From a virus, in the IMG/VR virus record IMGVR_UViG_3300030331_006288, positions 1-29,081 of that record: a DNA stretch of 29,081 nt. One strand, given 5' to 3'. The notes under the pieces are model-generated. The model did not search any database and was not told the DNA's origin. It saw only the letters and a list, made by a program, of their open reading frames with translations. Each line of letters starts with the position of its first letter. Position 1 is the stretch's first letter. Both the position numbers and the translations under genes were made by a program. Of this stretch, positions 1,303 through 29,081 are shown one piece after another.

Positions 1303-1477
1303 TAAAAATCTCCAACCAACTAGCTCGCATCCAAGCGGGCTCATGCCCGTCAAACCAATATACCCTATAGGGACAACCATTAGGATTTTTTAGTTGGGGC
1401 TCACTTATATATATTATAATCCCCAGGTTTGTAGGGTAAAGGCCGTGAACATTTTTTACCATGTCACCGACTTTCAT
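1289..1477 (-). CDS. MKVGD-family small protein (array member 8, 62 aa)
   Basis: ATG at 1477 with GAGGA about 9 nt upstream; 14-nt overlaps on both sides. It begins MKVGDMVKNVHGLYPTNLGI, then IIIYIS, a YRVYWFDGHEP strand-turn and a LEIFSESR end. The W-F-D-G turn matches the W-x-D-G position of member 6. Its N-terminal strand has insertions relative to shorter members, so loops vary while the barrel strands are kept. Function unknown. Confidence 0.87.
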   Translation of the reverse strand: MKVGDMVKNVHGLYPTNLGIIIYISEPQLKNPNGCPYRVYWFDGHEPAWMRASWLEIFSESR

Positions 1478-1664
1478 CTTCCATCCTCATAGACCACATC
1501 TTTTCAAAGCCGTAGTGGCAAGATATCAAAACAGCATGCAAAAAAATAGTGATGTTCGTAGTTGACTCAACATCGCCAGTCGCTATGAAAAGCACCAACA
1601 TGGTCACTAAAATTGAGACACACCTCCAAGCAATCACTTTTTTTAAAGTATCACCGACTTTCAC
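1464..1664 (-). CDS. DUF2061-like small membrane protein carrying MKVGD/ESR array ends
   Basis: The frame runs further upstream, but the GTG at 1664 in the standard junction is the likely start (GAGGT 7 nt upstream, 14-nt overlap with the previous gene). Only residues 1-5 (MKVGD) and the final ESR belong to the array pattern. Between them, KKVIAWRCVSILVTMLVLFI is followed by ATGD, a second hydrophobic helix near 37-52 and a HYGFEKMW end. That matches the small predicted membrane family DUF2061 (K-x-I-x-W-R, a Thr-Gly turn, then Y-x-x-E-x-x-W), recalled from memory. Two membrane helices and a 66-aa length suit that family. Function unknown. It is a foreign body between array junctions. Confidence 0.8.
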   Translation of the reverse strand: MKVGDTLKKVIAWRCVSILVTMLVLFIATGDVESTTNITIFLHAVLISCHYGFEKMWSMRMEDESR

Positions 1665-1842
1665 TGATAACCTCCAGTTCATGTGCAGCGTGAAAAGAAA
1701 AATCTGTATCACTCCAGATAATCTTATGGGAAGTAAAGCCCTCCTCTGGATAGTCAGTCATAGATATAATAACGCCCATCCCGTAGTCAACGCCTTTTAT
1801 TTTATATTGCTCTTTTAAAACAACCAAGTCACCGACTCTCAT
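1651..1842 (-). CDS. MKVGD-family small protein (array member 10, 63 aa)
   Basis: The ATG at 1842 (ATGAGAGTCGGTGACTTGG) is chosen over longer in-frame starts because it lies in the array junction and overlaps the upstream stop by 14 nt. It begins MRVGDLVVLKEQYKIKGVDY, followed by GMGVIIS, a KIIWSD strand and HELEVISESR. The G-M-G-V-I-I turn and I-I-W strand fit the family. Its stop overlaps the start of the DUF2061-like gene. Confidence 0.86.
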   Translation of the reverse strand: MRVGDLVVLKEQYKIKGVDYGMGVIISMTDYPEEGFTSHKIIWSDTDFSFHAAHELEVISESR

Positions 1843-2026
1843 CGTAAACTTCCAAAAGGCATGTTTGGTAGTTACCAACCGGAGTGTATGGATTACACCA
1901 CACAATGAAGGCAACATCGCGCCCCTGTTGTGAATGACGTGGTTCTTCTAGAGTCTCTAGCCTTACTACGACACCCAAAGGTTTGTCATAATGCGCGCGA
2001 AACTTTACCAGATCGCCAACCTTCAT
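1829..2026 (-). CDS. MKVGD-family small protein (array member 11, 65 aa)
   Basis: ATG start at 2026 (MKVGDLVKFRAHYDKPLGVV); ends LLEVYDESR with the 14-nt overlap downstream. At its own start the junction is different: it overlaps the previous gene by only 4 nt (ATGA). This is therefore the first gene, in transcription order, to use the repeated 14-nt junction, which marks that edge of the array. A FIVWCN strand takes the usual V-x-W place. Function unknown. Confidence 0.87.
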   Translation of the reverse strand: MKVGDLVKFRAHYDKPLGVVVRLETLEEPRHSQQGRDVAFIVWCNPYTPVGNYQTCLLEVYDESR

Positions 2027-2226
2027 CCAGAATGCCCTACTATCTCTAAATCAACCTCTGTCATAAAACCTTCGTCCACTTCAAAAAAAGGAGAAATCCA
2101 CTGTATCCTCCACCTTTTAAACTTTGTCGGGTGTTTTTCCAAAACTATTCCAATAGGGTGGTAGCTCGTGCCAACGGTATCTGGACCCCATGGCGTCTTG
2201 CACCTAACTAAGTCTCCGGGCTTCAT
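2023..2226 (-). CDS. MKPGD variant of the array family (67 aa)
   Basis: ATG at 2226, with 4-nt ATGA overlaps at both ends. It begins MKPGDLVRCKTPWGPDTVGT, has IGIVLEK and a RWRIQWIS strand, and ends VDLEIVGHSG. It keeps the family order, but has Pro for Val at position 3 and lacks the ESR end, consistent with lacking the 14-nt junction. It is either an older copy or a flanking copy outside the duplication unit. Confidence 0.86.
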   Translation of the reverse strand: MKPGDLVRCKTPWGPDTVGTSYHPIGIVLEKHPTKFKRWRIQWISPFFEVDEGFMTEVDLEIVGHSG

Positions 2227-2432
2227 AAGCCCCTCACGTCACACTGAACGACCTTATAATCTTTTATAAAATAAACTTTCTGACCCGCTTCAGGCAGACA
2301 TGCTGACAAGTCTTTGGACACTCGCGAGTAAAATGTCTTAGACCCCCTCTCATACGAGATTAAAATCTCACTTTCATACACATGTTCAACCATTCCGAGC
2401 ATCATCATTGTTGCTAAAATCTTGTTCTTCAT
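2223..2432 (-). CDS. unknown 69-aa protein
   Basis: ATG at 2432, with ATGA overlaps on both sides. The N-terminus MKNKILATMMMLGMVEHVYE is followed by a strand-rich region (SEILISYERGS, KVYFIKDYKV). This could be a small beta-barrel preceded by a short hydrophobic stretch, but no clear signal peptide or membrane helix is visible. Not recognised. It sits between the array and a larger protein with a KVGD domain. Confidence 0.75.
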   Translation of the reverse strand: MKNKILATMMMLGMVEHVYESEILISYERGSKTFYSRVSKDLSACLPEAGQKVYFIKDYKVVQCDVRGL

Positions 2433-2701
2433 GCTCTGCTCACAATCTCATATAGAGATTCGTAGTTGTTAAAACTTCGTGCATCCCAGCCATCCGTACA
2501 CAACCCAGCGTCACGCCACTGCACCTCAACGAAAAGATCCATACCGGCTGTCTTATGGTTATCGCCGTATGGTCCAATGGTGCTGGTTGAAACAACAATG
2601 CCCATGTCGTCATCATCAGTGCAGCGGATTATGTCGCCTACTTTTGGATATTCACTTAAAGGGATTGCATGCGGTGGCCTCTCTTTTTCATACGGCGGCA
2701 T
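2429..2701 (-). CDS. protein with a C-terminal KVGD domain (90 aa)
   Basis: The frame is open upstream to 2857, but that would bury 170 nt of the GIY-YIG gene. The ATG at 2701 has a strong AGAGGAG 8 nt upstream and overlaps the GIY-YIG stop by exactly 14 nt, so it is preferred. The N-terminus MPPYEKERPPHAIPLSEYP is proline-rich. Then KVGDIIRCTDDDDMGIVVS starts a family domain, followed by FVEVQWRDAG and an end in YEIVSRA. Here the MKVGD barrel sits behind a linker instead of at residue 1. Confidence 0.8.
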   Translation of the reverse strand: MPPYEKERPPHAIPLSEYPKVGDIIRCTDDDDMGIVVSTSTIGPYGDNHKTAGMDLFVEVQWRDAGLCTDGWDARSFNNYESLYEIVSRA

Positions 2702-2942
2702 TGATAAACTCCTCTTTTTGTTTTCTGGTAAGTCTTTTAAAGCTATACTCTGCCTGTAAAGCATCTCTACGTGTTCTATAAACTCTTGTGTGTATATAGC
2801 TGGATGGCCTTCTTGAGCGAGTGTACTTAGCACCTTTAGCTGTTTGGTTATGCTCATGTAGCCTACGCTCCAAGTCTGTAGTTACACCACAATAGTAAGT
2901 ACCATCAGCGCACAGTAAAACATAAAGGTACCAGTTTTTCAA
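2688..2942 (-). CDS. GIY-YIG domain nuclease-like protein (84 aa)
   Basis: The protein is WYLYVLLCADGTYYCGVTTD followed by LERRLHEHN, AKYTRSRRP and ALQAEYSFKRL. This is the single-domain GIY-YIG fold of the YhbQ/UPF0213 type: the Y-x-Y-V and Y-Y-C-G-V motifs sit at residues 4-19 and the conserved Arg of LERRLHEHN follows. Standalone members are about 80-100 aa, so it appears full length. The start is TTG at 2942, overlapping the upstream stop by 4 nt (TTGA). The family is structurally an endonuclease domain; its substrate here is unknown. It could be a solitary homing-type nuclease or a DNA-repair accessory. Confidence 0.87.
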   Translation of the reverse strand: MKNWYLYVLLCADGTYYCGVTTDLERRLHEHNQTAKGAKYTRSRRPSSYIHTRVYRTRRDALQAEYSFKRLTRKQKEEFINAAV

Positions 2943-3226
2943 TGATTAAACCAAAAATTCATATGCCAAGCGAGAACAGACATATATATCACACACACAG
3001 GAGCAAGCAATATGCGCTTGTGACGAGCAATAAATTCTAAGCCTATGGCGAAGAGAGTAAACTTTACTACTACAAATACCATAGGCCCTATCTCCAGGGC
3101 CATTGCCATGACTGGGTTTGCTTCTTCTACTCCCCTGCTCACTGCGAACAAGGTCATAACTGCATCGAGAAAGTTCATCAAGTGGCAGAGAAAAAACCAA
3201 GCTAGCCATGTTTGCTGTCTGTGCAT
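2939..3226 (-). CDS. small integral membrane protein, DUF5658-like (95 aa)
   Basis: Three hydrophobic segments are visible (about residues 8-28, 46-64 and 70-88). The motif LDAVMTLFAVSRGVEEANPV, then KFTLFAIGLEF, fits DUF5658 (a conserved D-x-x-x-T, then E-x-N-P), recalled from memory. The ATG at 3226 has no good Shine-Dalgarno, and the 17-nt gap to the preceding stop is AT-rich. It overlaps the GIY-YIG gene by 4 nt. Function unknown. Confidence 0.78.
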   Translation of the reverse strand: MHRQQTWLAWFFLCHLMNFLDAVMTLFAVSRGVEEANPVMAMALEIGPMVFVVVKFTLFAIGLEFIARHKRILLAPVCVIYMSVLAWHMNFWFNH

Positions 3227-3243
3227 TACATAGTAAATATATT

Positions 3244-3477
3244 CTACGTAGATAAAACTCTTTTTCTTCTATACTTTTTGCTGCCCAGGTGGAGTGCGCA
3301 CGTACCATCATCAATGGCCTTGTAGACAAAATCTACATCTACGTCGTGAAACTCACCAGGGGTGCTAAGGTTGCTGTGGCATATATAATAATGGATTTTT
3401 CTTTTTGTTACCTTTGTGACAAATCCATATCTACCTTGAGTCTCCAGCAAATCGCCTACTTTAATCTTAAAGTTCAT
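3244..3477 (-). CDS. KVGD-family small protein outside the array (77 aa)
   Basis: It starts MNFKIKVGDLLETQGRYGFV at ATG 3477, overlapping the upstream stop by 11 nt. The family core begins four residues later than usual, followed by TKVTKRKIHYYI and a variable tail rich in Lys and Arg (KKYRRKRV). It lacks LEVISESR and the 14-nt junction. A diverged relative, about 1 kb upstream of the array. Function unknown. Confidence 0.78.
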   Translation of the reverse strand: MNFKIKVGDLLETQGRYGFVTKVTKRKIHYYICHSNLSTPGEFHDVDVDFVYKAIDDGTCALHLGSKKYRRKRVLST

Positions 3478-3685
3478 GCTTCATCTGATCCATGACTGCA
3501 TCAATGCCGTATTGAATCAAAGTTTTAGCTAAAAACTTTGGAGGACAGTTGTGTTTTTTTGCATACGCTTGCACTGCCTCCCACTCATCGCGGTCGACAA
3601 AGACGCCCTTAATCTCTTTTTTAGAGCGTGGCCTACCTTTTGCTAAATACTCATTGATGCTCTTTTTATTGTAATCGTTAAACAT
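3467..3685 (-). CDS. unknown basic 72-aa protein, possible DNA-binding
   Basis: ATG at 3685 with an AGAGG 6 nt upstream. The N-terminal half is basic (KGRPRSKKEIK). It leads to one strand (GVFVDRDEWEAV) and two helices (AYAKKHNCPPKFLAKTLIQY), the strand-helix-helix order of ribbon-helix-helix proteins. No family is recognised with certainty. It is the first gene after the promoter-like sequence at 3734-3761, so it heads the transcript that runs into the array. A regulator role is possible but inferred. Confidence 0.72.
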   Translation of the reverse strand: MFNDYNKKSINEYLAKGRPRSKKEIKGVFVDRDEWEAVQAYAKKHNCPPKFLAKTLIQYGIDAVMDQMKHEL

Positions 3686-3733
3686 TGTTTCCTCTCAGAT
3701 ATTTATTAGCCGCTTTGGCCTGTCTACATCTTT

Positions 3734-3761
3734 ATTATAGGCACGGCACACAACGAGTAAA
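3734..3761 (-). promoter_or_regulatory. sigma70-like promoter ahead of the small-gene/array operon
   Basis: Minus-strand TTTACT (3756-3761), a 16-nt spacer and a perfect TATAAT (3734-3739), placing transcription start near 3727 and 40 nt before the ATG at 3685. It lies in one of the few true intergenic gaps (3686-3764). Confidence 0.6.
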
Positions 3762-3764
3762 AAA

Positions 3765-4073
3765 TTAATCCATCATTTTGTTGATGGCTTCGAGTGTTTT
3801 CTCTAGTAGTTTAAGTGCCATGATTTCTTTGATGCCCTCTACCATATCCGTAGCAGCATCATTATGCATTGAAATAAAGTCTTGGCTGCTCATGTTCTGT
3901 GACATGTGCCCCTGGCAGCCATAGCCAGTCTCTTCGCTGGCTCCTTGTGTTGGATTATTCTGGTTGCTTTTTCTCTGCTCATTCTTTTGAGCCTCTTGGT
4001 TTTCTATCTGGTGTGATTGTCCGGCAGGTGTTGGCCTGTAGACAGCACCAGTGTTTACTGGACCGACTTTCAC
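3765..4073 (-). CDS. unknown 102-aa protein starting MKVGP
   Basis: The frame extends to an ATG at 4127 with no ribosome binding site. The GTG at 4073 has a strong GGGGAGGGG about 5-10 nt upstream and gives MKVGPVNTGAVYRPTPAGQ. The first bases (GTGAAAGTCGGT) are those of the array junction, but the protein body is unrelated. Residues 20-60 are a Gln/Asn-rich hydrophilic linker, and the end is an amphipathic helix (MVEGIKEIMALKLLEKTLEA). No family recognised. A coiled-coil or oligomerising tail is inferred. Confidence 0.7.
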   Translation of the reverse strand: MKVGPVNTGAVYRPTPAGQSHQIENQEAQKNEQRKSNQNNPTQGASEETGYGCQGHMSQNMSSQDFISMHNDAATDMVEGIKEIMALKLLEKTLEAINKMMD

Positions 4074-4127
4074 TTTTTCACCCCTCCCCTTGTTTCGTCT
4101 GTGTTGACCTGTTAATGGTAAGTACAT

Positions 4128-4133
4128 ATTATA
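4128..4133 (-). promoter_or_regulatory. possible -10 element upstream of the MKVGP gene
   Basis: A perfect minus-strand TATAAT lies in an AT-rich gap 55 nt upstream of the GTG at 4073. No convincing -35 box is found at 16-18 nt; only T-runs are there. Weak call. Confidence 0.35.
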
Positions 4134-4165
4134 ATTAGTGAAAAAATAAAAAAATCGTTATTTGT

Positions 4166-4255
4166 CTAGTAGCAAGCCTTCCAAAGTAAAACAATAGAAA
4201 CCAAAAGCAACACGTCAATCGTAAAAAACATTAATGCTGGCTTGAAATCTTTCAT
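4166..4255 (-). CDS. 29-aa single-helix membrane peptide
   Basis: ATG at 4255 overlaps the preceding stop by ATGA. The peptide is MKDFKPALMFFTIDVLLLVS and then IVLLWKACY: a charged N-terminus followed by one long hydrophobic helix. Too short for routine gene calling. The exact ATGA coupling and the coherent membrane-peptide pattern support it; no homology can be claimed. Confidence 0.6.
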   Translation of the reverse strand: MKDFKPALMFFTIDVLLLVSIVLLWKACY

Positions 4256-4458
4256 TTGCTCTCGCTAACTACCTCTAAATCCTGACTCATAAAACTTCTA
4301 ACCTTGTTTCCCCGTGCCGTTGGGAACATAACGCTGAACACATCGCACTTCTTTTGTAGTATGACGCCGATTGTTTCAAAAGGTATGCCAATGACGTCAC
4401 TTATGCCATTGGTAAAGTGAGAGTGAATGTTTAATTTTACTAAATCGCCGACTTTCAT
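4252..4458 (-). CDS. isolated MKVGD-family small protein (68 aa)
   Basis: ATG at 4458 in ATGAAAGTCGGCGATTTAG, the junction sequence with one change. It begins MKVGDLVKLNIHSHFTNGIS, has a Gly-Val-Ile-Leu turn and an FSVMFP strand, and ends LEVVSESK. The stop overlaps the next ATG by 4 nt. It is a bona fide family copy about 2.2 kb upstream of the array, separated by unrelated genes. The ESK end and changed overlap suggest a copy that left the tandem arrangement. Confidence 0.85.
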   Translation of the reverse strand: MKVGDLVKLNIHSHFTNGISDVIGIPFETIGVILQKKCDVFSVMFPTARGNKVRSFMSQDLEVVSESK

Positions 4459-16870: not shown

Positions 16871-17208
16871 CTTTCAGAATCTCCTTCTTCTAAAATATCA
16901 TATATACTTTCAATCTCCTCTTCGTTTAGAGCAAATTTATTTTGAATATCTAGGCGCTTATCATACATTTTTTCTACATAAGCTCTCTTAGCTTTTCCTT
17001 GGATGTTGTGTTTTTGTTTAAACGAATCAATATAAGAAACAATGTTAGCATCGCCTTCCAAGTATCCACTGATCATCATTCTAAAAAACTGAGATTGGTT
17101 GATTCCATCATACTGGCACCTGACCCTTAAAGCGGCCTGCCTGTGCTCGCTGTCGTAAAACATGAACTTTTTTCTGTTGGATACCTCCGGTATTGTGGGA
17201 TCGCTCAT
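16867..17208 (-). CDS. ribbon-helix-helix-like protein (113 aa)
   Basis: KKFMFYDSEHRQAALRVRCQ, then YDGINQSQFFRMMISGYLEG. One strand followed by two helices, with a Gly-Ile-x-x-Ser-x-Phe-Phe-Arg turn and first helix as in Arc/CopG-type proteins. The C-terminal half is a long charged helix (KAKRAYVEKMYDKRLDIQNK) with an acidic tail. ATG at 17208 overlaps the upstream gene by 4 nt. A DNA-binding regulator is the best reading; the target is unknown. Confidence 0.75.
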   Translation of the reverse strand: MSDPTIPEVSNRKKFMFYDSEHRQAALRVRCQYDGINQSQFFRMMISGYLEGDANIVSYIDSFKQKHNIQGKAKRAYVEKMYDKRLDIQNKFALNEEEIESIYDILEEGDSES

Positions 17209-18224
17209 CTTGACCTCGCTAAAATATGAGTTGAACTTTCTGCGGCGCCGGCAGAAGTCTGTACAATAAATTCAGAATTAGCACGCAGCTCCTTCATACT
17301 TCGTGCGCCAGAGTAAGAAAACCCACTTTGCACGCCGCCTTTAATATTTCTTAAAATATTCTTAACTGGGCCTTTATAAGGCACTGTTGTTGATATACCC
17401 TCGGGCGTAGAGGTCTTGCCTCTCCAATCGTTTTGGGCCATTGCGGATGCCATTCCCCTATATGATTTATATTTCAACCCTTTAATATTTGTGTGCACTT
17501 CTCCCGGTGATTCATCTGTGCCGGCTAGCAGCGAGCCAACCATAATAAAATCTGCTCCTGCGGCATATGCCTTTACCATGTCGCCAGTTGTTCTAATTCC
17601 ACCATCGGCAATAATTTTAGCATCGTGCTCGCTTCTAGAGACGTCTAGCACACTTTGTAGTGTAGTGACACCATGGCCGGTCACAATCCTAGTTGAGCAG
17701 ATTGACCCGCCGCCAATACCAACACGAATAGAATCTGCTCCCCATTGAGCCAGTGCATCGAAGGCCTCAAGTGTTGCAACATTGCCAGCCATAACATGCA
17801 CGCTAGGGAACTTGTCTTTTAAAGTCTTTAAACAGGCCTCCATCATTTTGTGATGGCCATGCGCAACATCAACGCAAAGCACGTTAACGCCGCTCTCTAC
17901 TAAGCGGTGGGCGCGTTCCATGTAGTCACCCGTCATGCCAATCGCAGCTCCGACGTTTTTTGCGCCGCGCTCCTTACAAGCAATTGCAAGGTTGCTTTGT
18001 TTTTCTGCAGTGTTGTATCTGTGGAGAACACCTAGTCCGCCAAAATAATCCATTTTCAATAACATTTCGACTTCTGTTACTGTGTCCATAGGACTGGAAA
18101 TTAAAGGCAAGTCTAAATTAATACCCTCTCCTAGTTTATTTCCAATATTTACTTCTTTTCGGCTTTCAATGTCGCTATATTTTGGCACCAAAAGCACGTC
18201 ATCAAATGAATAACTGTTTCTCAC
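17205..18224 (-). CDS. IMP dehydrogenase / GMP reductase family, CBS-less (339 aa)
   Basis: A TIM-barrel purine nucleotide enzyme. FDDVLLVPKYSDI, SSPMDTV and GGLGVLHR open it. NVLCVDVAHGH and MAGNVAT follow, then the catalytic loop GGGSICSTRIVTGHG (Cys176), IADGGIRTTGDMVKA and a VPYKG...GGVQSGFSYSGA end. The CBS pair of bacterial GuaB is missing: the chain goes straight from HRYNTAEKQS to the next barrel strand. The IMPDH Arg-Tyr flap is not evident near EGISTTVPYKG, and the GMP-reductase hallmark is not clear either. So GuaB or GuaC cannot be settled. GTG at 18224, AGGAGG 6 nt upstream. Confidence 0.9.
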   Translation of the reverse strand: MRNSYSFDDVLLVPKYSDIESRKEVNIGNKLGEGINLDLPLISSPMDTVTEVEMLLKMDYFGGLGVLHRYNTAEKQSNLAIACKERGAKNVGAAIGMTGDYMERAHRLVESGVNVLCVDVAHGHHKMMEACLKTLKDKFPSVHVMAGNVATLEAFDALAQWGADSIRVGIGGGSICSTRIVTGHGVTTLQSVLDVSRSEHDAKIIADGGIRTTGDMVKAYAAGADFIMVGSLLAGTDESPGEVHTNIKGLKYKSYRGMASAMAQNDWRGKTSTPEGISTTVPYKGPVKNILRNIKGGVQSGFSYSGARSMKELRANSEFIVQTSAGAAESSTHILARSR

Positions 18225-18288: not shown

Positions 18289-18891
18289 TTAAAATCCTCC
18301 AACTGGCATGCCGTTCAAGGTATTGTCATCACCACGCACATCACGCTCATGCAAGTCTGCCAGAGAATCAGAGTATATTCCAGTACTTGGTGGGCATAAG
18401 CCTGTTGTAGTGGCTTTTTTATCAGTGCTGCCTAGGGCGCCAGAACCTCGCTTTGATACAGTCACCATGGAACCATCTGGACTGTCTTTGTATAGATCTC
18501 GGGTTTTATCAACGAGTGATGTTCGAAATAGTATAACTGGCACCAAAACTAGCTGGGCTATTTTATCGCCTGATGCAATATGTTGCACTTCATTCCCAAT
18601 ATTGTGCAGGTCAATAAACACCTCTCCATCATAGCCACTGTCAACAATGTGCGCGCCGACAATGAGAGAGCGCTTAGCCCCCATACTTGATCGATTACAA
18701 ACTTGGAGCATGTAGCCGTGTGGCACACCAAAGCTCAAGCCGGTAGGCAAAAGACTGTTCTCACCCGGTTTAAGGGTAGTGACACTCACATTTGGATCTT
18801 TCGGACAATAGTAGACGTCTAATCCTGCATCACTCGGGTTTGCACGATCCGGACACTTCGCGCCGGCCCTTCTCTTGTATTCTAAAATCAT
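18289..18891 (-). CDS. dut: dUTPase (200 aa)
   Basis: Trimeric dUTP pyrophosphatase, makes dUMP and keeps uracil out of DNA. All five motifs: I SDAGLDVY (20-27), II NRSSMG (66-71), III SGYDGEVFIDL (85-95), IV GDKIAQLVL (108-116), V RGSGALGST (148-156). ATG at 18891 (AGAGGA upstream) is chosen; the frame runs 24 codons further to 18963, adding a Lys-rich stretch. Unusually, about 43 residues follow motif V (TTTGLCPPSTGIYSDSLADL and onward), where most dUTPases end. With ThyX downstream it would feed dTMP synthesis. Confidence 0.94.
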   Translation of the reverse strand: MILEYKRRAGAKCPDRANPSDAGLDVYYCPKDPNVSVTTLKPGENSLLPTGLSFGVPHGYMLQVCNRSSMGAKRSLIVGAHIVDSGYDGEVFIDLHNIGNEVQHIASGDKIAQLVLVPVILFRTSLVDKTRDLYKDSPDGSMVTVSKRGSGALGSTDKKATTTGLCPPSTGIYSDSLADLHERDVRGDDNTLNGMPVGGF

Positions 18892-18968
18892 TTTCTTCCT
18901 CTTTTTTTTGTTTTTTTGTTTCGCAGCTTTTATATAACATGCAGCCGCAATCATAACACTCATCTTCG

Positions 18969-19232: not shown

Positions 19233-22200
19233 TTATCCCAATAATTTAAAGTTATGACTAATTGAACGAGTGCTAAAGCCCCAGTCTTCGCTGTAATCTA
19301 GCTTTGCCGCGTAGGGACGATTAAGGTGAATAAAGTCATTATCTTTTATGCCCCAGCACTTAATTGCACTAGTTGTTGATGTGTCATCAACAACCTTAAC
19401 AATCCAATATGTCTTGTCATTTTTGGTCTTTTTAGGAATAACCTCTCTAGGAATAAACCAGGCCACTCCTAGTTTGTTATCCCACTCGCCTAAGGCAGGA
19501 ACTTGATACTTACTAATTGAATCGCGCACCTGCTTGTTTAGAACAAGCTCAAACGGAAACATGCCAGTGAGCGTTGAAACAAAGTCAATTCGTTCTTCAA
19601 CAGTGAAATCTGCCTCTGGAGAATATTTTTCAATATTTTCAGCAAGCTTTTTGGGGTTCGCTGGCTTATCTTGCACACAAGACATCCAAAAGTGCTTGCA
19701 GCCATTAAAGCGCTCATCAATGATCGAATCCAGCGCGCCGGAGCGACAAAGCACATCGAGTGCTTTCTTACCCAGCTTGGAATGTACGACATCTTTATTG
19801 AAAATAATATCTTCAATTTTATGAAATGGTCTGTTTTTCAAAATCTGCTCAACCGCTTTATTACCCAAGCCCTTTATAGAACTAAACGGCTGGATTAAAG
19901 TAACTCCATCATCGCCAATCTCCCACTTTTCAGTTGAAGTATTAATGTTGATGTTCTCAATATAATAACCATTTTTTTGAGCTAAAGCTATAGCAGCCTC
20001 TTTTCTTGACTCAGGCTCTTTATCTAGAAAAGCAGCTGTCCAGCACTCAGGATAATAATTTAGTAGCCAAGCACATTGATAAGAAAGGATACTGTAAGCA
20101 ACAGCATGAGACTTATTAAAGCCGTACCCACTAAAATACTCAAAATTTCTCCAGAGTGATTCTGAGGTTTGTCTATCGATTGACTTATCAAGGCAGCCCT
20201 CAACAAATCTTCTTTTGATATCTTCTTTTTCTTCAGCACCTTTACCTGTTCCTTTCTTCGTCAAAAGCTTTCTTAGCTTATTGCCCTCTTCTAGAGAGAT
20301 ATCTTTTCCAAGCTTGTGCGCCAAAAGTGCAATCTGTTCTTGAAAAATTAGAAAACCAGCTGTCTCTTTTGTGACTTCTTCAACAATATCATTAAGATAT
20401 TGTACATCAGATAGTTCTCTTTTTGCCTTGACGTAAGACTTGTCCACTCCAGCGCTCAGAGGGCCGGGGCGATAAATAGACGTAATTGCAGAAATATCAA
20501 TAATATCATTTGGTTTTGATTTTTTCGCTAGTCTTTGCGCCCCAGCGTTTGTAAACTGAAATACACCCATGAACTTACCTTTGTGGAAAATGTTTTTATA
20601 GACATTTTTGTCCTCTAAGTCAATTACGTCTGGGTGTAGCGTAGAATCGTAATATTCTTTGACTTCTTTAAAAGTTGGATTCTCTACATTGTGGTGTCTT
20701 CTTAAAACATGGCTAATCGCAGATTGAATCATTTCTAATGTTGAAAGGCCTAGCAGATCAAACTTAATAAACCCAAGAGGCTCAAGGTGCCTGACGTGCA
20801 TGCCCTCAGACCATGGAGTTTGCACCACGCCGCCAGAACAAATAAGAGGCATGTGCTTATCTAGATCTTCGCCAATAACAACTCCGCCAGCATGTCGGCT
20901 TGTGGAGCGGACTTGCCCAACCAAAGCTTCAACATGGGTCTTGATGTGTGGATACTTCTTTAGGAACCGCCCCAGTGATTCTGAATACTCCATCACCTCT
21001 TCAAAAGTTGGAGCATACACACCAGCTTTAATGCCATGTTTTGCCTTTGCTTTTGGAGTCGCTTCTTTAACCATTCGGCTGGTTACAGAGTTGACCTCAG
21101 TAAACGGAACGTCATAGAACTTGCTAATATCTTTAATTAAAGATCTCAACTGCAAAGTATTGAAATTGGAAATAGGCACAACAGTTGTTTCACCCCACTT
21201 TTCAGCTAAGATCTCCTTCAGTCGAAAAGCGTCGCTAACATCATAATCAATGTCAGGATAGTCCTTTGCATCTGATCTCAAGAATCGGCTAAACAAGAGG
21301 CCGTACTTGATTGGATCAACTTGAGTAATCCTAAGAACATAGGCAACAAGCGAGCCGGCAGCTGAACCGCGACCAGGACCAGAGAGCATGCTATCAGATG
21401 CCACATCAGCAATTGCTTTCATAGTCAAGAAATACTTACTAAATCCGCGGCTGTTAATCACTTTAAGTTCGTGCTTAAGCCTATCAATATACTCTTGCTT
21501 GTCTGCCAGCTTCATCTTGCGCAGGCCTGCGATAGACTCTTTAACTAAAGTTTGCTCACCAGATTCACCCTCTGGGATTATAAATCCAGGTAGTCGCACA
21601 GTGTCATCAGGCATGAAATCTTCAACCACCTCATGCGCAATCCAGTGTGTTTTGACAATCGAATCGTAAACTAAATCATCGTTATAACTAACTCCACACT
21701 CCTCGGAATACTTCTTGTAAGAAGCCCACATCTGATCACCGTTTTTTGGATAAAGCTCCATGCCCATCTCATCGATATCAACAGGCAGCTCCGATTTCAG
21801 ATACTCAGGAGTTTTTGATTTACCTAGCCACCCCAGTCTTTTGTAAAGCTCTCTGTCTTTCCAGGCATCAGCGCTTGGATAGTGGGAGTCGGCGGTGGAG
21901 ATAAGCTCAATTCCAAACTCTTCGTGCATTTTAATGACATATTGATTTAGCTCGTGCTGAGCTGGGACATTGTTCCACTGCAGCTCACCATACCAGCGAT
22001 CGCCTAGGCAATCAACCATATTTTTAGTTGTCAACCTCATGGCTTCCAGCACAGCTTCGTCGCCGGCGTCCTTGTTGTTCCAATAGTCCTGTGCGTACAC
22101 GCCGCCTAGGCACGCTGAAGAGGCAATAATGCCTTCACTGTTCTCTTTTAGAATTTTGTAGTCTAGTCGAGGCTTTCTGTAGAAGTTATCCCCCTGGTGA

Positions 22201-22664
22201 GAGTCAGAAACAATCTTGAAAATATTGTTTAGACCTTTTTGGTTAATCGCTATAAGAACTAAGTGCCCATAAGAATTAATTTTGCTTTTAGATTTGCTTT
22301 TAGAAGCTTGCTCGTCTTCGGCCTCAACCTTATCAGTATTTTGGATAACTTTTCTAGCTTCCTTTTTATCTTTCTTAATTCTCTCATATTCTTCGCGCCA
22401 GTCATCAATACTGGAGACAAAATACGCCTCAACACCAAAAATTGGTTTGAAACTCTTGCCCTCCTCTTTCATCTTCTTTGCGTGCAAAACTTGATATGAC
22501 ATCCCATTCATGTTGCCATGATCTGTTAGCGCTAGCGCGCCCATGCCATTTTCATACGCGAAGTCCATGTGATCTTGTGGGTAACCAAACCCATCAAAAA
22601 CAGAACCTGCGACGCTATGGGCGTGCAAACCAACAAAAGGAATTTTACTGCTAGCTCTTTCCAT
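19233..22664 (-). CDS. dnaE: DNA polymerase III alpha subunit, DnaE type (1143 aa)
   Basis: A C-family replicative polymerase. The N-terminal PHP domain has LHAHSVAGSVFDGF (His14, His16), LTDHGN (Asp48, His49), GVEAYF (Glu79) and ADSHYPS near 259-264, so its metal site looks intact. A hydrophilic linker (KVEADDE-like, about 112-131) precedes the palm/fingers. The polymerase carboxylates are in YPDIDYD (471-475) and in FIKFDLLGLSTLE. SGPGRGSAAGSL is the nucleotide-site glycine motif. SIYRPGP and FSGYGFNKSHAVAYS are also standard. A C-terminal OB-like part ends KLLG. No separate proofreading subunit lies nearby. AGG-rich ribosome site (GGAGG) before 22664. Confidence 0.97.
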   Translation of the reverse strand: MERASSKIPFVGLHAHSVAGSVFDGFGYPQDHMDFAYENGMGALALTDHGNMNGMSYQVLHAKKMKEEGKSFKPIFGVEAYFVSSIDDWREEYERIKKDKKEARKVIQNTDKVEAEDEQASKSKSKSKINSYGHLVLIAINQKGLNNIFKIVSDSHQGDNFYRKPRLDYKILKENSEGIIASSACLGGVYAQDYWNNKDAGDEAVLEAMRLTTKNMVDCLGDRWYGELQWNNVPAQHELNQYVIKMHEEFGIELISTADSHYPSADAWKDRELYKRLGWLGKSKTPEYLKSELPVDIDEMGMELYPKNGDQMWASYKKYSEECGVSYNDDLVYDSIVKTHWIAHEVVEDFMPDDTVRLPGFIIPEGESGEQTLVKESIAGLRKMKLADKQEYIDRLKHELKVINSRGFSKYFLTMKAIADVASDSMLSGPGRGSAAGSLVAYVLRITQVDPIKYGLLFSRFLRSDAKDYPDIDYDVSDAFRLKEILAEKWGETTVVPISNFNTLQLRSLIKDISKFYDVPFTEVNSVTSRMVKEATPKAKAKHGIKAGVYAPTFEEVMEYSESLGRFLKKYPHIKTHVEALVGQVRSTSRHAGGVVIGEDLDKHMPLICSGGVVQTPWSEGMHVRHLEPLGFIKFDLLGLSTLEMIQSAISHVLRRHHNVENPTFKEVKEYYDSTLHPDVIDLEDKNVYKNIFHKGKFMGVFQFTNAGAQRLAKKSKPNDIIDISAITSIYRPGPLSAGVDKSYVKAKRELSDVQYLNDIVEEVTKETAGFLIFQEQIALLAHKLGKDISLEEGNKLRKLLTKKGTGKGAEEKEDIKRRFVEGCLDKSIDRQTSESLWRNFEYFSGYGFNKSHAVAYSILSYQCAWLLNYYPECWTAAFLDKEPESRKEAAIALAQKNGYYIENININTSTEKWEIGDDGVTLIQPFSSIKGLGNKAVEQILKNRPFHKIEDIIFNKDVVHSKLGKKALDVLCRSGALDSIIDERFNGCKHFWMSCVQDKPANPKKLAENIEKYSPEADFTVEERIDFVSTLTGMFPFELVLNKQVRDSISKYQVPALGEWDNKLGVAWFIPREVIPKKTKNDKTYWIVKVVDDTSTTSAIKCWGIKDNDFIHLNRPYAAKLDYSEDWGFSTRSISHNFKLLG

Positions 22665-22712: not shown

Positions 22713-23573
22713 TCAAAACAAGCTCATATATCTTTCGCCACGATCGCACAGAAAAGTGACAGCGACGCCTTCAAACTGATTATTTTCAACCCATCTTTCA
22801 GCGCCAAGTATATTTGCGCCAGCAGAAATGCCAACTAATATACCACTTTCTTTAGCTAATCTTCTGGCGCGGTGTATTGCATCTTCAGTAGAAACCTTAA
22901 TCTCATCGTCAACCAAGCTTCTTTCAACCAAAAAGTCAGCGCCGTCATTAATACCTTGTATTCCGTGTGATTTCGAGTCTTCTTCAGGTGTTATTAGTAC
23001 GGTTTTAACGTTTTTATTTACTTTGACTAAGGCTCTCCTAACACCCATTATTGTCCCACCAGTGCCTGAGCCGCATATCAGCGCTCCAATATCTTTTTTT
23101 CTTTCAACAATCAGCTGCCTCACTATCTCTCTGCCAGTTGTTATTTCGTGGCATTCTATGTTGTCAATATTTTCAAATTGACGTGGGGACCAATAATCAC
23201 TGTTGTTGTTAACAAGTTTGTTTCTTAGTTCAATAGCACCAGCAAAATCGCTTGGCCCAACTTCAACCACTTCTGCGCCAAAAAGCCTCATCATCTGTTT
23301 GCGTTCTTCAGACATGTTGCAAGGCATTACAATTTTAACTTTGTAACCCTTTGTTGCCCCCAGCATTGAAAAAGCAATACCGGTATTCCCGCTGGTTGCT
23401 TCAACAATTGTATCGCCTGGTTTTATTTCTTTTCTCCACTCAGCTTTTGACAAAATGTACAAAGCTATTCGATCTTTTATACTCCCAGTTGGGTTGTAAG
23501 TCTCAAGCTTTGCGTAGAGCTTGTCATTTATTTTTATTAATGGCGTGTTTCCAATCGCCGTAGATATGTCCAT
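22713..23573 (-). CDS. cysteine synthase, O-acetylserine sulfhydrylase (286 aa)
   Basis: A PLP enzyme joining sulfide to O-acetylserine (CysK/CysM type). AIGNTPLIKI, NPTGSIKDR (PLP lysine Lys33), EATSGNTGIAFS, ICGSGTGGTIMG and GISAGAN form the cofactor and substrate sites; the end is CDRGERYMSLF. The frame runs further upstream, but ATG at 23573 has GAGGAG 8 nt before it and avoids overlapping the upstream gene. Length is slightly under bacterial CysK (about 310). CysM versus CysK cannot be settled by eye. Rare in phages; it could raise cysteine supply or serve sulfur metabolism during infection (inference). Confidence 0.93.
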   Translation of the reverse strand: MDISTAIGNTPLIKINDKLYAKLETYNPTGSIKDRIALYILSKAEWRKEIKPGDTIVEATSGNTGIAFSMLGATKGYKVKIVMPCNMSEERKQMMRLFGAEVVEVGPSDFAGAIELRNKLVNNNSDYWSPRQFENIDNIECHEITTGREIVRQLIVERKKDIGALICGSGTGGTIMGVRRALVKVNKNVKTVLITPEEDSKSHGIQGINDGADFLVERSLVDDEIKVSTEDAIHRARRLAKESGILVGISAGANILGAERWVENNQFEGVAVTFLCDRGERYMSLF

Positions 23574-23577
23574 TTGT

Positions 23578-24435
23578 TCACTCCTCGTCAAACCCAATTT
23601 CATTCCACTCTTTGTAACTAAATATTATTTTATGTGGTCGCTGCACATCTTGATTTTGTGATAAAAACTCACAATAGCTTTGCCAATTGTCTAGACTAAA
23701 GTAGTCTTCAAGAACACGTACTTTGTGCTTTTTAAAATCTAAACCATCAAAAACGTCTTTTAAGGAAAAGAAGCGGTATGAAAACCTCTCCTTCAATGGC
23801 AACTTCTCTCCGTTGTTCTCTTGCGAGCGCAGTCCAGTTGACTTCAGATACACCTGCTCTTTAAGTTGTTCTAAATAATCTAAACTGAAACTAAATCCGC
23901 TATAAAAACCCTCTTCAACACCACCATTTTTAGTACTTAAGTAAAGATCAGCTGAAGACCTTAGTGTATCTCTTTCTTGCCTCAAAATAGAAGGATCATA
24001 GTATCCGTATGGCCACGATACATAAAACTTTTGTGGTGTCAACCACGTGCTTAAAGACGAGGATATCTTTTTTGCCGTCTCTGCGCCATGAATTACACTC
24101 CATGACAAGCAATCTCTCTTATTAACATCGCGAGGGTTTATCGGAACATAATATATTCTTATTGGTCTTTTGTGCTCTTTTCTTCTCTTTTCATAATTTC
24201 GATTTACGTACACTGGGTCTTGCACGACCTCTCCAATTCGGTGTCTTATCAGAGGTTGCACGTCGTCATTACAAACTATCCAAATTGTATTACAGCCAGC
24301 ATATGCGCACTCCAGCACACTTCGCTCAACCATGAGATAGTCAGGGCCGATCGGCATGAGAGCGTCATGCCATGGCATATTAAAATCTAGTGCCTGACCA
24401 GCGACAGGTATGACTCCAGCAAGATGTGTATTCAC
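23578..24435 (-). CDS. nucleotidyltransferase-like protein (285 aa)
   Basis: The start AGVIPVAGQALDFNMPWHDA is followed by LMPIGPDYLMVERSVLECAY and AGCNTIWIVCND. This is the order of sugar-nucleotidyltransferases (GT-A fold): V-I-P-V-A-G, P-I-x-x-x-x-L, then a G-x-x-x-I-x-I-V-x strand. The classical G-x-G-T-R loop and catalytic Lys are missing, so activity is uncertain. Downstream segments (KFYVSWPYGYYDPSILRQER, GFYSGFSFSLDYLEQ) suit a substrate-binding domain. GTG at 24435 shares one base with the upstream stop. A sugar-modification role is inferred. Confidence 0.72.
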   Translation of the reverse strand: MNTHLAGVIPVAGQALDFNMPWHDALMPIGPDYLMVERSVLECAYAGCNTIWIVCNDDVQPLIRHRIGEVVQDPVYVNRNYEKRRKEHKRPIRIYYVPINPRDVNKRDCLSWSVIHGAETAKKISSSLSTWLTPQKFYVSWPYGYYDPSILRQERDTLRSSADLYLSTKNGGVEEGFYSGFSFSLDYLEQLKEQVYLKSTGLRSQENNGEKLPLKERFSYRFFSLKDVFDGLDFKKHKVRVLEDYFSLDNWQSYCEFLSQNQDVQRPHKIIFSYKEWNEIGFDEE

Positions 24436-25151
24436 TACTCTCCGTAATATGTAATATTCTTGTCAACAATATAATTAGATTTTTTGATTGGAAATATATC
24501 TCTTTTCCATAATTGTATATCAGGCTTTTCTATTCCAGCTTGCTTCATCATACTAATTGTTTTTAATCTGGACATGGCTGTAGAGTATTGTACATCATTT
24601 AACAAGCTTTTTTTAATTTTCGAAACCGCTACCAAGTCTTTCTTGTTTTTGTTGCCATCTATTCTTGAAGACAAATAAAAGCTTACCTTGTGGACAAAAT
24701 CCAGCTTATCTTCTAAAAAGCTATAGTCGTGCACCATGCCGCTTTTAACATCATACCAGTCATATGCTAGATAGTAATCTACCTCTTCTTTGAATCCGTC
24801 AGGAAGACCAAAAATATTATCTAAACTAAACAAAGTCAAGTTTTCAAACTTTATTTGAAAAATCTTTTCATTTTTTGTAAATATTTTTAATTTGTTATCT
24901 TGCTCTAAACGCAAACTCTTTACGTTGTTGCCAAATGGGTTCATCCCGCGCAGGCAATGAAGGTAATTAACTCTAGCCCAAAAATCTTCTTCTAGTTCAA
25001 ACTCGCCATTTTCGTTTTTTGTTTTAATAAACGGTCTTATGTTGGGTAGAGAGTTGTAAATTAGATAGCAGTTGTTGTCAAACGCAAATTTGCTAGCTGT
25101 GGTGCTAGTGCCGACAGCAATGTTTGTCCAATTATAAACATGCTCTAACAT
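24435..25151 (-). CDS. unknown 238-aa protein
   Basis: MLEHVYNWTNIAVGTSTTAS, then KFAFDNNCYLIYNSLPNIRP, LHCLRGMNPFGNNVKSLRLE, VDYYLAYDWYDVKSGMVHDY, and ends VDKNITYYGE. A mix of strands and helices rich in Tyr/Asn, with no motif I recognise. It pairs with the nucleotidyltransferase-like gene (1-nt overlap) and overlaps the upstream gene by 7 nt, so the two probably form a functional pair. Confidence 0.75.
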   Translation of the reverse strand: MLEHVYNWTNIAVGTSTTASKFAFDNNCYLIYNSLPNIRPFIKTKNENGEFELEEDFWARVNYLHCLRGMNPFGNNVKSLRLEQDNKLKIFTKNEKIFQIKFENLTLFSLDNIFGLPDGFKEEVDYYLAYDWYDVKSGMVHDYSFLEDKLDFVHKVSFYLSSRIDGNKNKKDLVAVSKIKKSLLNDVQYSTAMSRLKTISMMKQAGIEKPDIQLWKRDIFPIKKSNYIVDKNITYYGE

Positions 25152-25852
25152 CCATCCTCATGTGCTTCTATGTGCTCTATAACCTCTTCTCTGTTGTTTT
25201 TAATCTCTCTGTGCCATTTTTTTAGAAGCCTGTAGTGGGTTGGTCGTTCATTGCACCTGCCCCCGTCTTTAGGCGCTCTAATCCCCGTAACCCACGCTGC
25301 GATCCACAATGACCTATCTGATGTTTTTTTACACTGTCTCTTAACTTTTGGCAGTAATTTTTTTATGTGCGTCATCCAAGCTGTTGCAGCTTGATTAACA
25401 TTGGTTCTGTCTATGTCGTATGCGCGCTCCCACCACTTCCACATCTGCAGAATTCCCAACGCCATTGGCTTTTTGCCAGACTTGCTAAACTTTCTATCGC
25501 CCTTTGCTGTTGCGCTATATCCGCTCTCCAGACAGGCCGCGGCCAGGAGCATACCCCTTAAAGTGGGCGGCACATCAAACGATTTTTCAATTGATATTAA
25601 TTCATCAATTACACCCTCATCAACTAAGTGTGGTTTTCTATATCTACAGCTTGATATTGCCTCTACTTTTATTTCTTCATAACTCGGGTGGTCATCCTTG
25701 TAATAAGAGAGCAAATTAATATATTCTGCTTCTTCTTCCTCATGCTCAACAAAGTGTATCGTATCTATCTTTTTAACAACTATTTCCCTCTCTGTGTCGT
25801 ATGGAAGGTCAATAGTTGTTCCAATAAGAAGTAGTGGTAAAATTAGTTTCAT
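25145..25852 (-). CDS. lytic transglycosylase-like protein with N-terminal signal (235 aa)
   Basis: ATG at 25852 with AGGAG 8 nt upstream, 5 nt after thyX; the frame is open further but into thyX. MKLILPLLLIGTTI is a hydrophobic start, probably a signal. Residues about 97-150 carry RGMLLAAACLESGYSATAKG and ALGILQMWKWWERAY: Glu109 in the E-S-G-Y motif and the G-I-L-Q loop are the SLT-fold hallmarks. The end is charged and helical. Likely cleaves peptidoglycan for lysis or DNA entry. It stands apart from any recognisable holin or spanin. Confidence 0.82.
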   Translation of the reverse strand: MKLILPLLLIGTTIDLPYDTEREIVVKKIDTIHFVEHEEEEAEYINLLSYYKDDHPSYEEIKVEAISSCRYRKPHLVDEGVIDELISIEKSFDVPPTLRGMLLAAACLESGYSATAKGDRKFSKSGKKPMALGILQMWKWWERAYDIDRTNVNQAATAWMTHIKKLLPKVKRQCKKTSDRSLWIAAWVTGIRAPKDGGRCNERPTHYRLLKKWHREIKNNREEVIEHIEAHEDGC

Positions 25853-25856
25853 TTTT

Positions 25857-26558
25857 TTATCTCCTGCACTCTTGATAGCTCTTGATAGCAATTGGCCATT
25901 TTTTATTTGCAATCTCAAGCATTGCGCTGGCTAGCCTTTGTATCTCCCACTGGGCGCCGGCGTGTGTTCTTAAGTCTATGAATTTAAGTAGGTTGTTAAG
26001 ATTAACTGTTCCATAATATTCTGTATAAATTGACTGTGGCAAGACTCCACGAGCCTGCTCTCTGCAAATTCCACCCTCTAACAAGGCATCATAAAGCTGC
26101 ATGCAGCTCTTATTATGTGCTTTAACCATATAACTGACAGACTTGCCACCATGTACAGTGTTTGTATTTAGCACCGGGTTAATAAGATCTTCCGTGCTTG
26201 CTTGCCTGTTGCTTCTGCTTTGTGACCTAAACATAGAAGGTGCGTAAAATTGTATATTTTCTTCTGTGTATCTTCTACTAATTTCATTGTAAGACCATGT
26301 TCTATGTCGCATGTGTTGCGAGCGTATAAACAAAGGAACCTTAATTCTAAAAGTTATAACGTTGTGCTCGAAAGTGCTAGTATGTTTGTTCTTCACTAAA
26401 TAGTTTATAAGCTTAATGTCCTTATCGTCTAGTTCTTCCTTGTGCTTTCCAAAAGAAACACGAGCACTGTTTACTATGGTCAGATCACTGCCCATATAAT
26501 CAACACACTCGACAAAGCCAATGCCATCATCGTATAGTTCTATTCTATCTGAATTCAT
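25857..26558 (-). CDS. thyX: flavin-dependent thymidylate synthase ThyX (233 aa)
   Basis: Makes dTMP from dUMP with FAD and NADPH. The ThyX motif is RHRTWSYNEISRRY (residues 84-97: R-H-R, S94, R95). Other family segments: INYLVKNKHTSTFEHNVITF (His65), then YGTVNLNNLLKFIDLRTHAG and AQWEIQRLA. Length normal (about 220-250). ATG at 26558. With dUTPase and class II reductase it completes a phage route to dTTP that needs no thymidylate-folate recycling. Confidence 0.95.
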   Translation of the reverse strand: MNSDRIELYDDGIGFVECVDYMGSDLTIVNSARVSFGKHKEELDDKDIKLINYLVKNKHTSTFEHNVITFRIKVPLFIRSQHMRHRTWSYNEISRRYTEENIQFYAPSMFRSQSRSNRQASTEDLINPVLNTNTVHGGKSVSYMVKAHNKSCMQLYDALLEGGICREQARGVLPQSIYTEYYGTVNLNNLLKFIDLRTHAGAQWEIQRLASAMLEIANKKWPIAIKSYQECRR

Positions 26559-27916: not shown

Positions 27917-29081
27917 TTAAATTATTTCACACGCTCCACCTGCACAAGCTAACTCACCAGTCAAATTTGTAGAATCATCAACTTCAACAACTCTTGTTAA
28001 ATCTAATTGAGTAATTTTATCTAATAGAAACTCATAAGTTTCTGGCGAGCAATCTTCAAAAGGCGCTTGCTTGTACGTGTGATCGCTATGAGGCAACACC
28101 GACAAGCCATTATAAAAACATCTGTTGTCCCACATCCACTCGCCAACATCAATCCACTCTGCATCTTTTATTGATACAGTTGCAGAAACATTATGAGTGT
28201 TCTGGCCTCTCTGGTGGCCCGGGCGCACCCACTCTTCAGTGACTCTCTTTATGCGCTTAAGAAGCTGCAGTGCGCTTTCGTTTCTAGTAATGGCGCCTTG
28301 AGGCGCTCGTTGTGGAACTTCAATCACTGCAGTGTCATGAGGCCTAAAATACTCATCTTTAACTAAGTCTGGGTGGTGAATCAATAAGTGTGTAAATATC
28401 GCTTCATTTTTTCCAACTCTCAGCCTGCGAATATAATGCTCATTATGCCAGGCATGTATGCCAGAACTCGTGCCCAAGGTCAAAGAAGTAGTGCCTGCAG
28501 GCTTGACGCAGGTTGTACGTGCGGCCGGCCTGATTCCAATTTCTTTTGCAATGCGACGATTTTCTTTTTTAACTGCTGCCGCGGCCGCGCTCATATCCAA
28601 CTCTAACACCTTTCCTGAGGCGATACCGGTCATTGATACGCCAACTAGCGCGTCTTTCTCTGTTGTACGTCTCCAGACATCCCTCAAGTAGTGAAAGTCT
28701 GTGTATCCTGCCTGAAGTGTCCCAATAAATGCAGCTGCGCGTGCTCTATTTTCATACTCTTCTTGAGAGTCTACGTCAGAAGCATTAATTTCTGTAAGAT
28801 TACAAAACTGATATGGACGCAAAGCAATCTCGCAGCATGGGTTCGTGCCCCAATCTTTATCATTTGAAAAATAAAAACCAGGTTCACCAGAACCTGACTC
28901 TTTTACCCTTTCCCAAATTTTCATAAAATAATCTTTAGTGATTAAGTGCCGCATCAAGACAACTGAATTGTTTGCTCTGCCTCTTTGTGGATTTGTTTCC
29001 CACCAGTTACCAGTTTTTGCGGCAAGCATCTCTTCATCGTCTGCGGAAAAAAGTGAAATAAGAGCAGCCCTACGGATCCCC
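27917..29081 (-). CDS. nrdJ: class II (B12-dependent) ribonucleotide reductase, 3' part (partial)
   Basis: The frame is open to the right edge (IRRAALISLFSADDEEMLAA is still coding), so the N-terminus is missing. GTNPCCEIALRPYQFCNLTE carries the active-site Cys and Glu (N-P-C-x-E). SMTGIASGKV, PAGTTSLTLGTSSGIHAWHN and VPQRAPQGAI continue the fold. It ends ACAGGACEII, where the last two Cys are the redox pair that re-reduces the active site. The order fits the monomeric adenosylcobalamin ribonucleoside-triphosphate reductase type (Lactobacillus-like), oxygen-independent. Makes dNTPs for phage DNA. It needs cobalamin from the host or water. Confidence 0.95.
   Translation of the reverse strand, partial: GIRRAALISLFSADDEEMLAAKTGNWWETNPQRGRANNSVVLMRHLITKDYFMKIWERVKESGSGEPGFYFSNDKDWGTNPCCEIALRPYQFCNLTEINASDVDSQEEYENRARAAAFIGTLQAGYTDFHYLRDVWRRTTEKDALVGVSMTGIASGKVLELDMSAAAAAVKKENRRIAKEIGIRPAARTTCVKPAGTTSLTLGTSSGIHAWHNEHYIRRLRVGKNEAIFTHLLIHHPDLVKDEYFRPHDTAVIEVPQRAPQGAITRNESALQLLKRIKRVTEEWVRPGHQRGQNTHNVSATVSIKDAEWIDVGEWMWDNRCFYNGLSVLPHSDHTYKQAPFEDCSPETYEFLLDKITQLDLTRVVEVDDSTNLTGELACAGGACEII

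Follow-up and report, generated by a model that had tools for sequence, protein, structure and literature searches.

We analysed the virus record IMGVR_UViG_3300030331_006288 (hereafter "the window", i.e. the whole stretch of 29,081 bases, from an uncultured phage of bacteria), in which three genes lie side by side on the minus strand at positions 22713-25151. They encode two proteins that are not named in any of the libraries used, X and NT, and a cysteine-synthase-like enzyme dependent on pyridoxal phosphate (PLP), here called cysK-like. In an uncultured phage lineage, X and NT are a conserved pair beside the DnaE-type DNA polymerase, and this pair, rather than cysK, is the unexplained part of the locus and the weightier finding. 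We put the probability at roughly 0.5 that the cysK-like gene is a separate auxiliary cysteine-maker and that X and NT are a pair that travels with DnaE and acts on nucleotides or DNA. The three genes had been noted before, in what we call the original prediction, and the observation was confirmed: all three open reading frames (ORFs) are intact and co-directional, with X and NT sharing 1 nt. Many other viral contigs contain relatives of X, NT, and cysK, so that their association in the window is not a matter of chance.

The linkage of X and NT was determined with a six-frame profile search of 171 NT loci, which include the window and five loci from metagenome-assembled genomes (MAGs), and exclude L162 (a copy of the window), L216 (PaMx11), and the bacterial loci from L217 onward. 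X accompanies NT in 161 of the 171 loci, where it always precedes NT on the same strand, in 117 cases at a distance of at most 100 nt and in 44 cases of at most 4 kb; in total, X was found in 162 loci. ORF-based counts (98 loci; 148/171) missed copies. Loci on the same contig were merged only for contig-level counts (13 duplicates), and near-identical phages from different samples were kept separate. After merging, X is present in 150 of 158 NT contigs. The 10 NT loci without X have only 0-843 nt of sequence before NT, and in one locus without a detected X (L136) cysK fills the space before NT, so that X is not directly adjacent there. The description of the two genes as a coupled pair therefore holds well beyond the window, and the pairing is very nearly obligate, short of proof.

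Downstream of NT, DnaE is present in 145 of the 151 loci that extend 1 kb or more beyond NT, and in 140 of them it is no more than 3 kb away. Fifteen large contigs (114-193 kb), none of them known to be complete, were hand-picked by size, and among the five that carry cysK, three or more stem from the cysK query. All 15 contain X, and 14 contain DnaE; in the exception, G016, the contig ends some 500 nt after NT (locus L042). One X frame among the 15 has an in-frame TGA (G008:C1:39252-40061).

The pair is widespread among uncultured viruses. A scan with the NT alignment revealed NT in at least 575 viral stretches of IMG/VR, and a pattern-based scan of the genomes of 84,980 species yielded 105 pattern matches, among them five MAG contigs with NT, all of which also carry X. 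These five are probably phage contigs or phage sequences that were binned wrongly. Searching 50,697 phage records with the window proteins (tblastn) revealed neither NT nor X. A literature word search retrieved no description of the X-NT pair or of DnaE together with Gp23, although an unnamed family cannot be found by words.

For comparison, we estimated how often cysK belongs to the same neighbourhood. It is present in 6 of the 80 contigs gathered with one NT query, in 19 of the 131 gathered with both NT queries, and in 5 of the 15 large contigs, leaving 10 without it. Of the 80 contigs gathered with cysK, 43 have no NT within the stretch examined (at most 10 kb on either side). At least two arrangements exist, with cysK either after NT (the group of the window) or between X and NT (the L122/L138 group), and the NT-linked cysK genes do not form a single clade. 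From these distributions we infer that cysK is an optional gene of the cassette and not the partner of X and NT. The original prediction had regarded the three genes as one pathway for a sulfur- or sugar-modified compound and had proposed a gene-neighbourhood survey as a check. In our loci, X, NT, and DnaE are nearly always linked and cysK is optional; a single three-gene pathway is unsupported by co-occurrence, though cysK adjoins the pair where both occur.

NT begins with MNTHLAGVIPVAG. The window protein matches no family in Pfam, PHROG, or NCBIfam, and 82 members of the family gave only scattered weak matches against the PHROGs. Profiles of NT and X matched PDB sequences with no E-value better than 0.5. 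An AlphaFold2 model of NT, based on a window-led alignment, has a mean predicted local distance difference test value (pLDDT) of 91.8 and a predicted template modelling score (pTM) of 0.90. It predicts an RmlA/IspD/GalU-type nucleotidyltransferase fold, with 3hl3 as the best match (VIA-align Z 18.6, root-mean-square deviation [rmsd] 2.9, 209 residues). The earlier label "nucleotidyltransferase-like" is thus borne out at the level of the modelled fold.

The signature of the sugar nucleotidyltransferases is a different matter. GxG[TS]R is present in 0 of 82 NT sequences; the signature loop reads mostly VAG..LDFN.PWHD..MP instead. Residues 11-27 of the window protein include neither K nor R in the place of the signature-loop lysine; 39 of 81 relatives have a K or R somewhere in the loop, and no loop position that is conserved to at least 80% is K or R. 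At the place of the metal-binding Asp, after the fourth strand, the sequence is mostly [SA]-[FW]-P-Y-G, the equivalence being derived from strand order and not from a structural alignment. Local hhalign comparison with just four nucleotidyltransferase templates found no relationship (2.4% at best) and is uninformative. NT as an ordinary sugar nucleotidyltransferase was rejected on account of the absent signature, which also counts against the sugar-modification part of the original prediction. The family is well conserved: 8 positions are invariant and 46 nearly invariant across 82 sequences, and D58, D73-P74, D103, D108, W112, and S129 belong to one or the other class.

X of the window has no match in Pfam or NCBIfam and none in PHROG better than E 0.038, and 76 members of the family gave only scattered weak matches to Pfam. 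Its AlphaFold2 model, also from a window-led alignment (mean pLDDT 95.1, pTM 0.85), predicts the fold of oxidoreductases dependent on flavin adenine dinucleotide (FAD), matching many FAD enzymes with middling scores (Z up to 12.4, rmsd 3.8, 217 residues). The dinucleotide motif GxGxxG is degraded in the 75 sequences compared: the first glycine is retained in 75/75, the second in 17/75, and the third is replaced by A or S in 75/75, and no conserved acid was found at the end of strand 2.

The identity of the third protein is more conventional. It matches PALP (PF00291) over residues 13-286 with E 3.3e-63 and 214.2 bits (cut-off 35), it contains the GSIKDR lysine, TSGNTG, GTGGT, and GISAGA motifs, and 125 PDB sequences match it at E ≤ 0.001, cysteine synthases foremost. 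The scores remain below the NCBIfam cut-offs, i.e. 283.7 bits for TIGR01136 cysKM (cut-off 344.15), and, for the equivalogs, 263.8 of 350.95 bits for TIGR01139 and 248.7 of 394.2 bits for TIGR01138. Because of these sub-threshold equivalog scores we call the gene cysteine-synthase-like and assign it neither to CysK nor to CysM, and the name "cysteine synthase" in the original prediction holds in the sense of a PALP-family enzyme. Gene and motifs stand as described there, and the start is shifted: from its sequence context, it is most likely ATG 23573, which follows an AGGAG by 7 nt and the NT stop by 4 nt, and not ATG 23603 inside NT.

All 59 phage cysK sequences keep K33, S61-G62-N63, G170-T171-G172-G173-T174, and S250, which we take to be the Schiff-base lysine, the SGN substrate loop, the glycine-rich phosphate loop, and the serine at the pyridine nitrogen, respectively. 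They form one clade against 37 cellular sequences (support 0.948), which is partly expected because they were gathered by similarity to the window. Compared with the 77%-identical cysK of L140, the identities at the three codon positions are 0.77/0.89/0.43, a pattern typical of purifying selection. The nonsynonymous divergence (dN) is 0.18, and the synonymous divergence (dS) is saturated, so that no dN/dS ratio can be given. None of the five cysK-bearing large contigs has a serine acetyltransferase above the TIGR01172 cut-off (a weak match of 17.7 bits is present in G018), and activated serine would accordingly have to be supplied by the host.

Taken together, we favour the following explanation. 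The cysK-like enzyme would convert O-acetylserine supplied by the host, or a related activated serine, and sulfide to cysteine during infection, and the cysteine would serve phage protein synthesis and the redox chemistry of nucleotide synthesis. The PLP motifs, the purifying selection, the single phage clade, and the place in the nucleotide/replication cassette are observed, and substrate and reaction direction are proposed. Relief of a sulfur limit, one of the roles originally proposed, would then be the most likely role for cysK alone. X and NT would jointly target a nucleotide or the DNA, using active sites rebuilt on an FAD-oxidoreductase fold and a nucleotidyltransferase fold, respectively. 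Their pairing, their position, the lost signatures, and the conserved NT residues are observations and the folds are model predictions; joint action, catalysis, and substrate are proposed.

Several points weigh against this explanation. NT and cysK are at most 2 kb apart in 52 of the 54 loci in which both occur (39 of 41 contigs), the exceptions being L104 and L107 with distances of 8.6-8.8 kb. Such closeness may reflect a functional tie in these lineages and lowers our confidence. In the 43 cysK phages mentioned above, NT may lie elsewhere in the genome. In L193, about 600 nt upstream of NT are available and do not contain X, which rules out direct adjacency in this locus. The phage cysK clade has invariant D210 and N254, which the cellular set has not, and this difference, together with the scores below the equivalog level, suggests that the substrate of the phage enzyme may differ. 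Lastly, both X and NT have lost their family signatures, and either may be non-catalytic.

The last point leads to a serious alternative, to which we nevertheless give considerably less than even odds: X and NT might be non-catalytic parts of the replisome, i.e. accessory subunits of a phage DnaE that replaces the T4-like B-family polymerase. The proximity of DnaE to NT, the presence of DnaE in 14 of the 15 large contigs, which all encode Gp23, the failure to detect a B-family polymerase (DNA_pol_B) in any of the 15, and the loss of both signatures all speak for such a role. However, the invariant or nearly invariant polar residues of NT, in loops at the usual place of the active site (as judged by strand order), seem to exceed what a mere scaffold would need, and in several loci genes for a lytic transglycosylase or a methyltransferase are inserted between NT and DnaE.

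A second serious alternative, to which we give about the same odds as to the replisome role, is hypermodification of nucleotides or DNA by X and NT, with cysK taking part where present: NT would activate a group, X would oxidise it, and the product would enter the phage DNA. Foldseek matched X to 8z79, the gp47/NGTO of PaMx11, a phage DNA-hypermodification enzyme (rank 22, E 5.8e-6), and one BFVD match of NT is RB69ORF053c (rank 29). According to a passage in PMC12838424, the RB69 ORF052_053c region presumably helps to make UDP-arabinose for arabinosylated cytosine. Matches to Mom, DNA methylases, and a sub-cut-off S-adenosylmethionine (S-AdoMet) lyase near the cassette in other loci, as well as the adjacency of cysK to the pair, point in the same direction. 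On the other hand, the folds of X and NT match hundreds of unrelated proteins, NGTO is outside the best 50 VIA matches of X, NT has no GxGTR, and a hydroxymethylase is not among the Pfam families listed for the large contig G011. X as an NGTO homologue is unsupported: the similarity is one of fold alone, and profile comparison gives no support (hhalign against PaMx11 gp47, 16 columns, probability 0.3%). A broader joint claim can be offered only tentatively, namely that X and NT are a new obligate system of two enzymes with rebuilt active sites, making a modified nucleotide or DNA base in a widespread, uncultured, DnaE-replicating, T4-type lineage, with the cysteine-synthase-like enzyme as an added partner in some lineages.

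For cysK, the main rival to cysteine synthesis is the reverse reaction, from cysteine to sulfide, as reported for a Lactococcus phage. An excerpt of PMC12713726, citing Kieft et al., lists phage cysK under "sulfide production from cysteine degradation", with a Lactococcus phage and its host as the model and RNA-seq and mass spectrometry as the tests, and Lactococcus phages carry relatives of the window enzyme. These are just 37-40% identical to it among the matches listed, and host and conditions differ, so that we consider the reverse reaction improbable here. Least probable is a role in surface glycans, with NT as a maker of nucleotide sugars and X as a sugar oxidase or mutase: the NT fold matches RmlA and GalU, and X matches UDP-galactopyranose mutase (Z 11.4), but GxG[TS]R is absent, PF00483 was not found in the window, and X-NT is part of a replication cassette in the neighbourhoods listed.

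A role on nucleotides or DNA remains the favoured explanation for X and NT. If they are enzymes, they would represent a nucleotide or DNA chemistry that is missing from phage annotation; if they are structural, they would be a new component of the DnaE replisome of a T4-type phage.

Within the window, no gene for a structural protein was recognised, and the T4-type placement is based on its relatives. Gp23 was found in 15/15 large contigs. In these Gp23 phages (e.g. G006-G020), DnaE appears to have replaced the B-family replicative polymerase. One of the contigs, G011, was compared with Pfam (124 of 137 ORFs of at least 110 amino acids; two of more than 1,500 amino acids and 11 others were left out, and the first 25 of 31 families were seen in each of two scans). 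It encodes a T4-type portal, prohead protease, gp32, and baseplate and sheath proteins, as well as IMPDH, a PurA-like protein, APS kinase, a sulfotransferase, glutaredoxin, and the PLP enzyme. Its capsid protein is nearest to that of the uncultured phage record LR756508, and the nearest named ones are those of Flavobacterium phage immuto, Microcystis phage Mel-JY01, and Rhodothermus phage RM378. RM378 is a cultured phage discussed together with the Far-T4 group in the excerpt of PMC4360716, and its presence among the nearest capsids suggests that, within the T4 superfamily, the lineage belongs to the Far-T4 side. Uncultured Far-T4-like phages are tentatively tied to Flavobacteriales in a passage of PMC13037479.

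The features of the window are compiled in the table below. On the minus strand, the gene order is ribonucleotide reductase, two small genes, a DUF3293 gene, ThyX, Y, X, NT, the cysK-like gene, DnaE, a small gene, a dUTPase-like gene, and an IMPDH-like gene, with GroEL and a ClpP-like ORF (named by eye) further on.

Table. Features of the X-NT region and the surrounding replication cassette in the window
Feature	Position	Strand	Basis or remark
Cysteine-synthase-like PLP enzyme (PALP family), 286 aa	22713..23573	-	Pfam, NCBIfam, PDB matches; ORF extendable to 23603 inside NT
NT, predicted nucleotidyltransferase-fold protein without GxGTR signature, 285 aa, GTG start	23578..24435	-	AlphaFold2 model
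X, predicted FAD-oxidoreductase-fold protein, degraded dinucleotide motif, 238 aa, stop TAG	24435..25151	-	AlphaFold2 model
Overlap of X stop and NT start, exactly 1 nt, TAG/GTG	24435..24435	-	Sequence
DnaE-type DNA polymerase III alpha, 1143 aa, downstream of NT in most loci	19233..22664	-	TIGR00594 polc 558.8 bits, cut-off 434.35
dUTPase-like gene, same cassette	18289..18963	-	TIGR00576 dut E 4e-25, below cut-off
IMP dehydrogenase/GMP reductase-type gene, same cassette	17205..18224	-	Pfam IMPDH E 4.6e-107
Y, directly upstream of X	25145..25918	-	No Pfam match; lysozyme/transglycosylase-like by eye only
ThyX, flavin-dependent thymidylate synthase	25857..26558	-	Pfam Thy1 E 3.3e-51
Ribonucleotide reductase, frame open to record end	27917..29029	-	phrog_367 E 1.8e-65

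Additional genes were observed around the cassette in the relatives. In L040, the gene directly upstream of X has a Pfam SLT match. An adenylosuccinate-synthetase-like gene of about 330 amino acids is located in or near the cassette in L036, L038, L039, L058, L067-L069, L081, and others (e.g. L290:9130-10149), and its occurrence together with IMPDH suggests a rebalancing of purines. A 2-aminoadenine pathway was set aside: the 18 ORFs of this type (cluster c43) retain Asp, in motifs that include GDEGKGK, GDCGKGK, GDTGKGK, and GDESKGK, in which they presumably differ from PurZ. Modification- or restriction-type genes are present near the X-NT-DnaE cassette at L138:12860-13771, L084:12047-12814, L107:8338-9039, and L043:10857-11546; the matches, on different contigs, are to Mom, N6/N4 DNA methylase, S-AdoMet lyase (below cut-off), and the MvaI/BcnI endonuclease family. 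One sub-lineage has a phosphoenolpyruvate carboxykinase gene (PEPCK_ATP, E 5e-179; L099:6186-7649) upstream of Y-X-NT-cysK. At the other end of the window, at 43-4458 of the minus strand, about eleven small ORFs of 60-140 amino acids, several of them overlapping their neighbours, have a KVGDLV-like motif in common, and many also have a SESR-like end; they resemble a tandem paralogous family.

The comparison with known systems reveals a mixture of familiar and divergent traits. Like members of the T4 superfamily, the relatives of the window encode Gp23, and G011 also the portal, gp32, baseplate, and sheath proteins, whereas they differ by having DnaE and no detected B-family polymerase. NT has the same overall fold as RmlA, GalU, and IspD (Z 16.4-18.6 among the matches listed), with VIPVAG at the first strand and loop; it differs from RmlA, GalU, and NTP_transferase by the missing GxG[TS]R and has neither a PF00483 match nor a convincing PHROG. 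X has the predicted fold and the first motif glycine in common with FAD enzymes of the renalase, amino-oxidase, and NGTO types, but its dinucleotide motif is degraded and it has no family match.

The phage enzyme belongs to the PALP family like CysK and CysM and retains the PLP lysine, the SGN loop, the glycine-rich loop, and the serine. In contrast, its identity to the cellular sequences found does not exceed 45%, and its loop before HGIQG is shorter than in three aligned cellular relatives. The huge phage record LR745206 carries a cysK that is 54.5% identical to the window enzyme, but none of the genes of the window cassette was recognised around it, and Lactococcus phages such as P087 have a cysK of the same family. 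The view that phages rarely carry cysteine synthase has to be softened: excerpts from the literature describe phage cysK in viruses of the Mariana Trench (PMC8725595) and in jumbo phages (PMC13037316), and list cysteine synthase A among the proteins on aquatic viral fragments (PMC10452541). The cysK-like gene of the window adds one more phage lineage to this known class of sulfur-related auxiliary genes.

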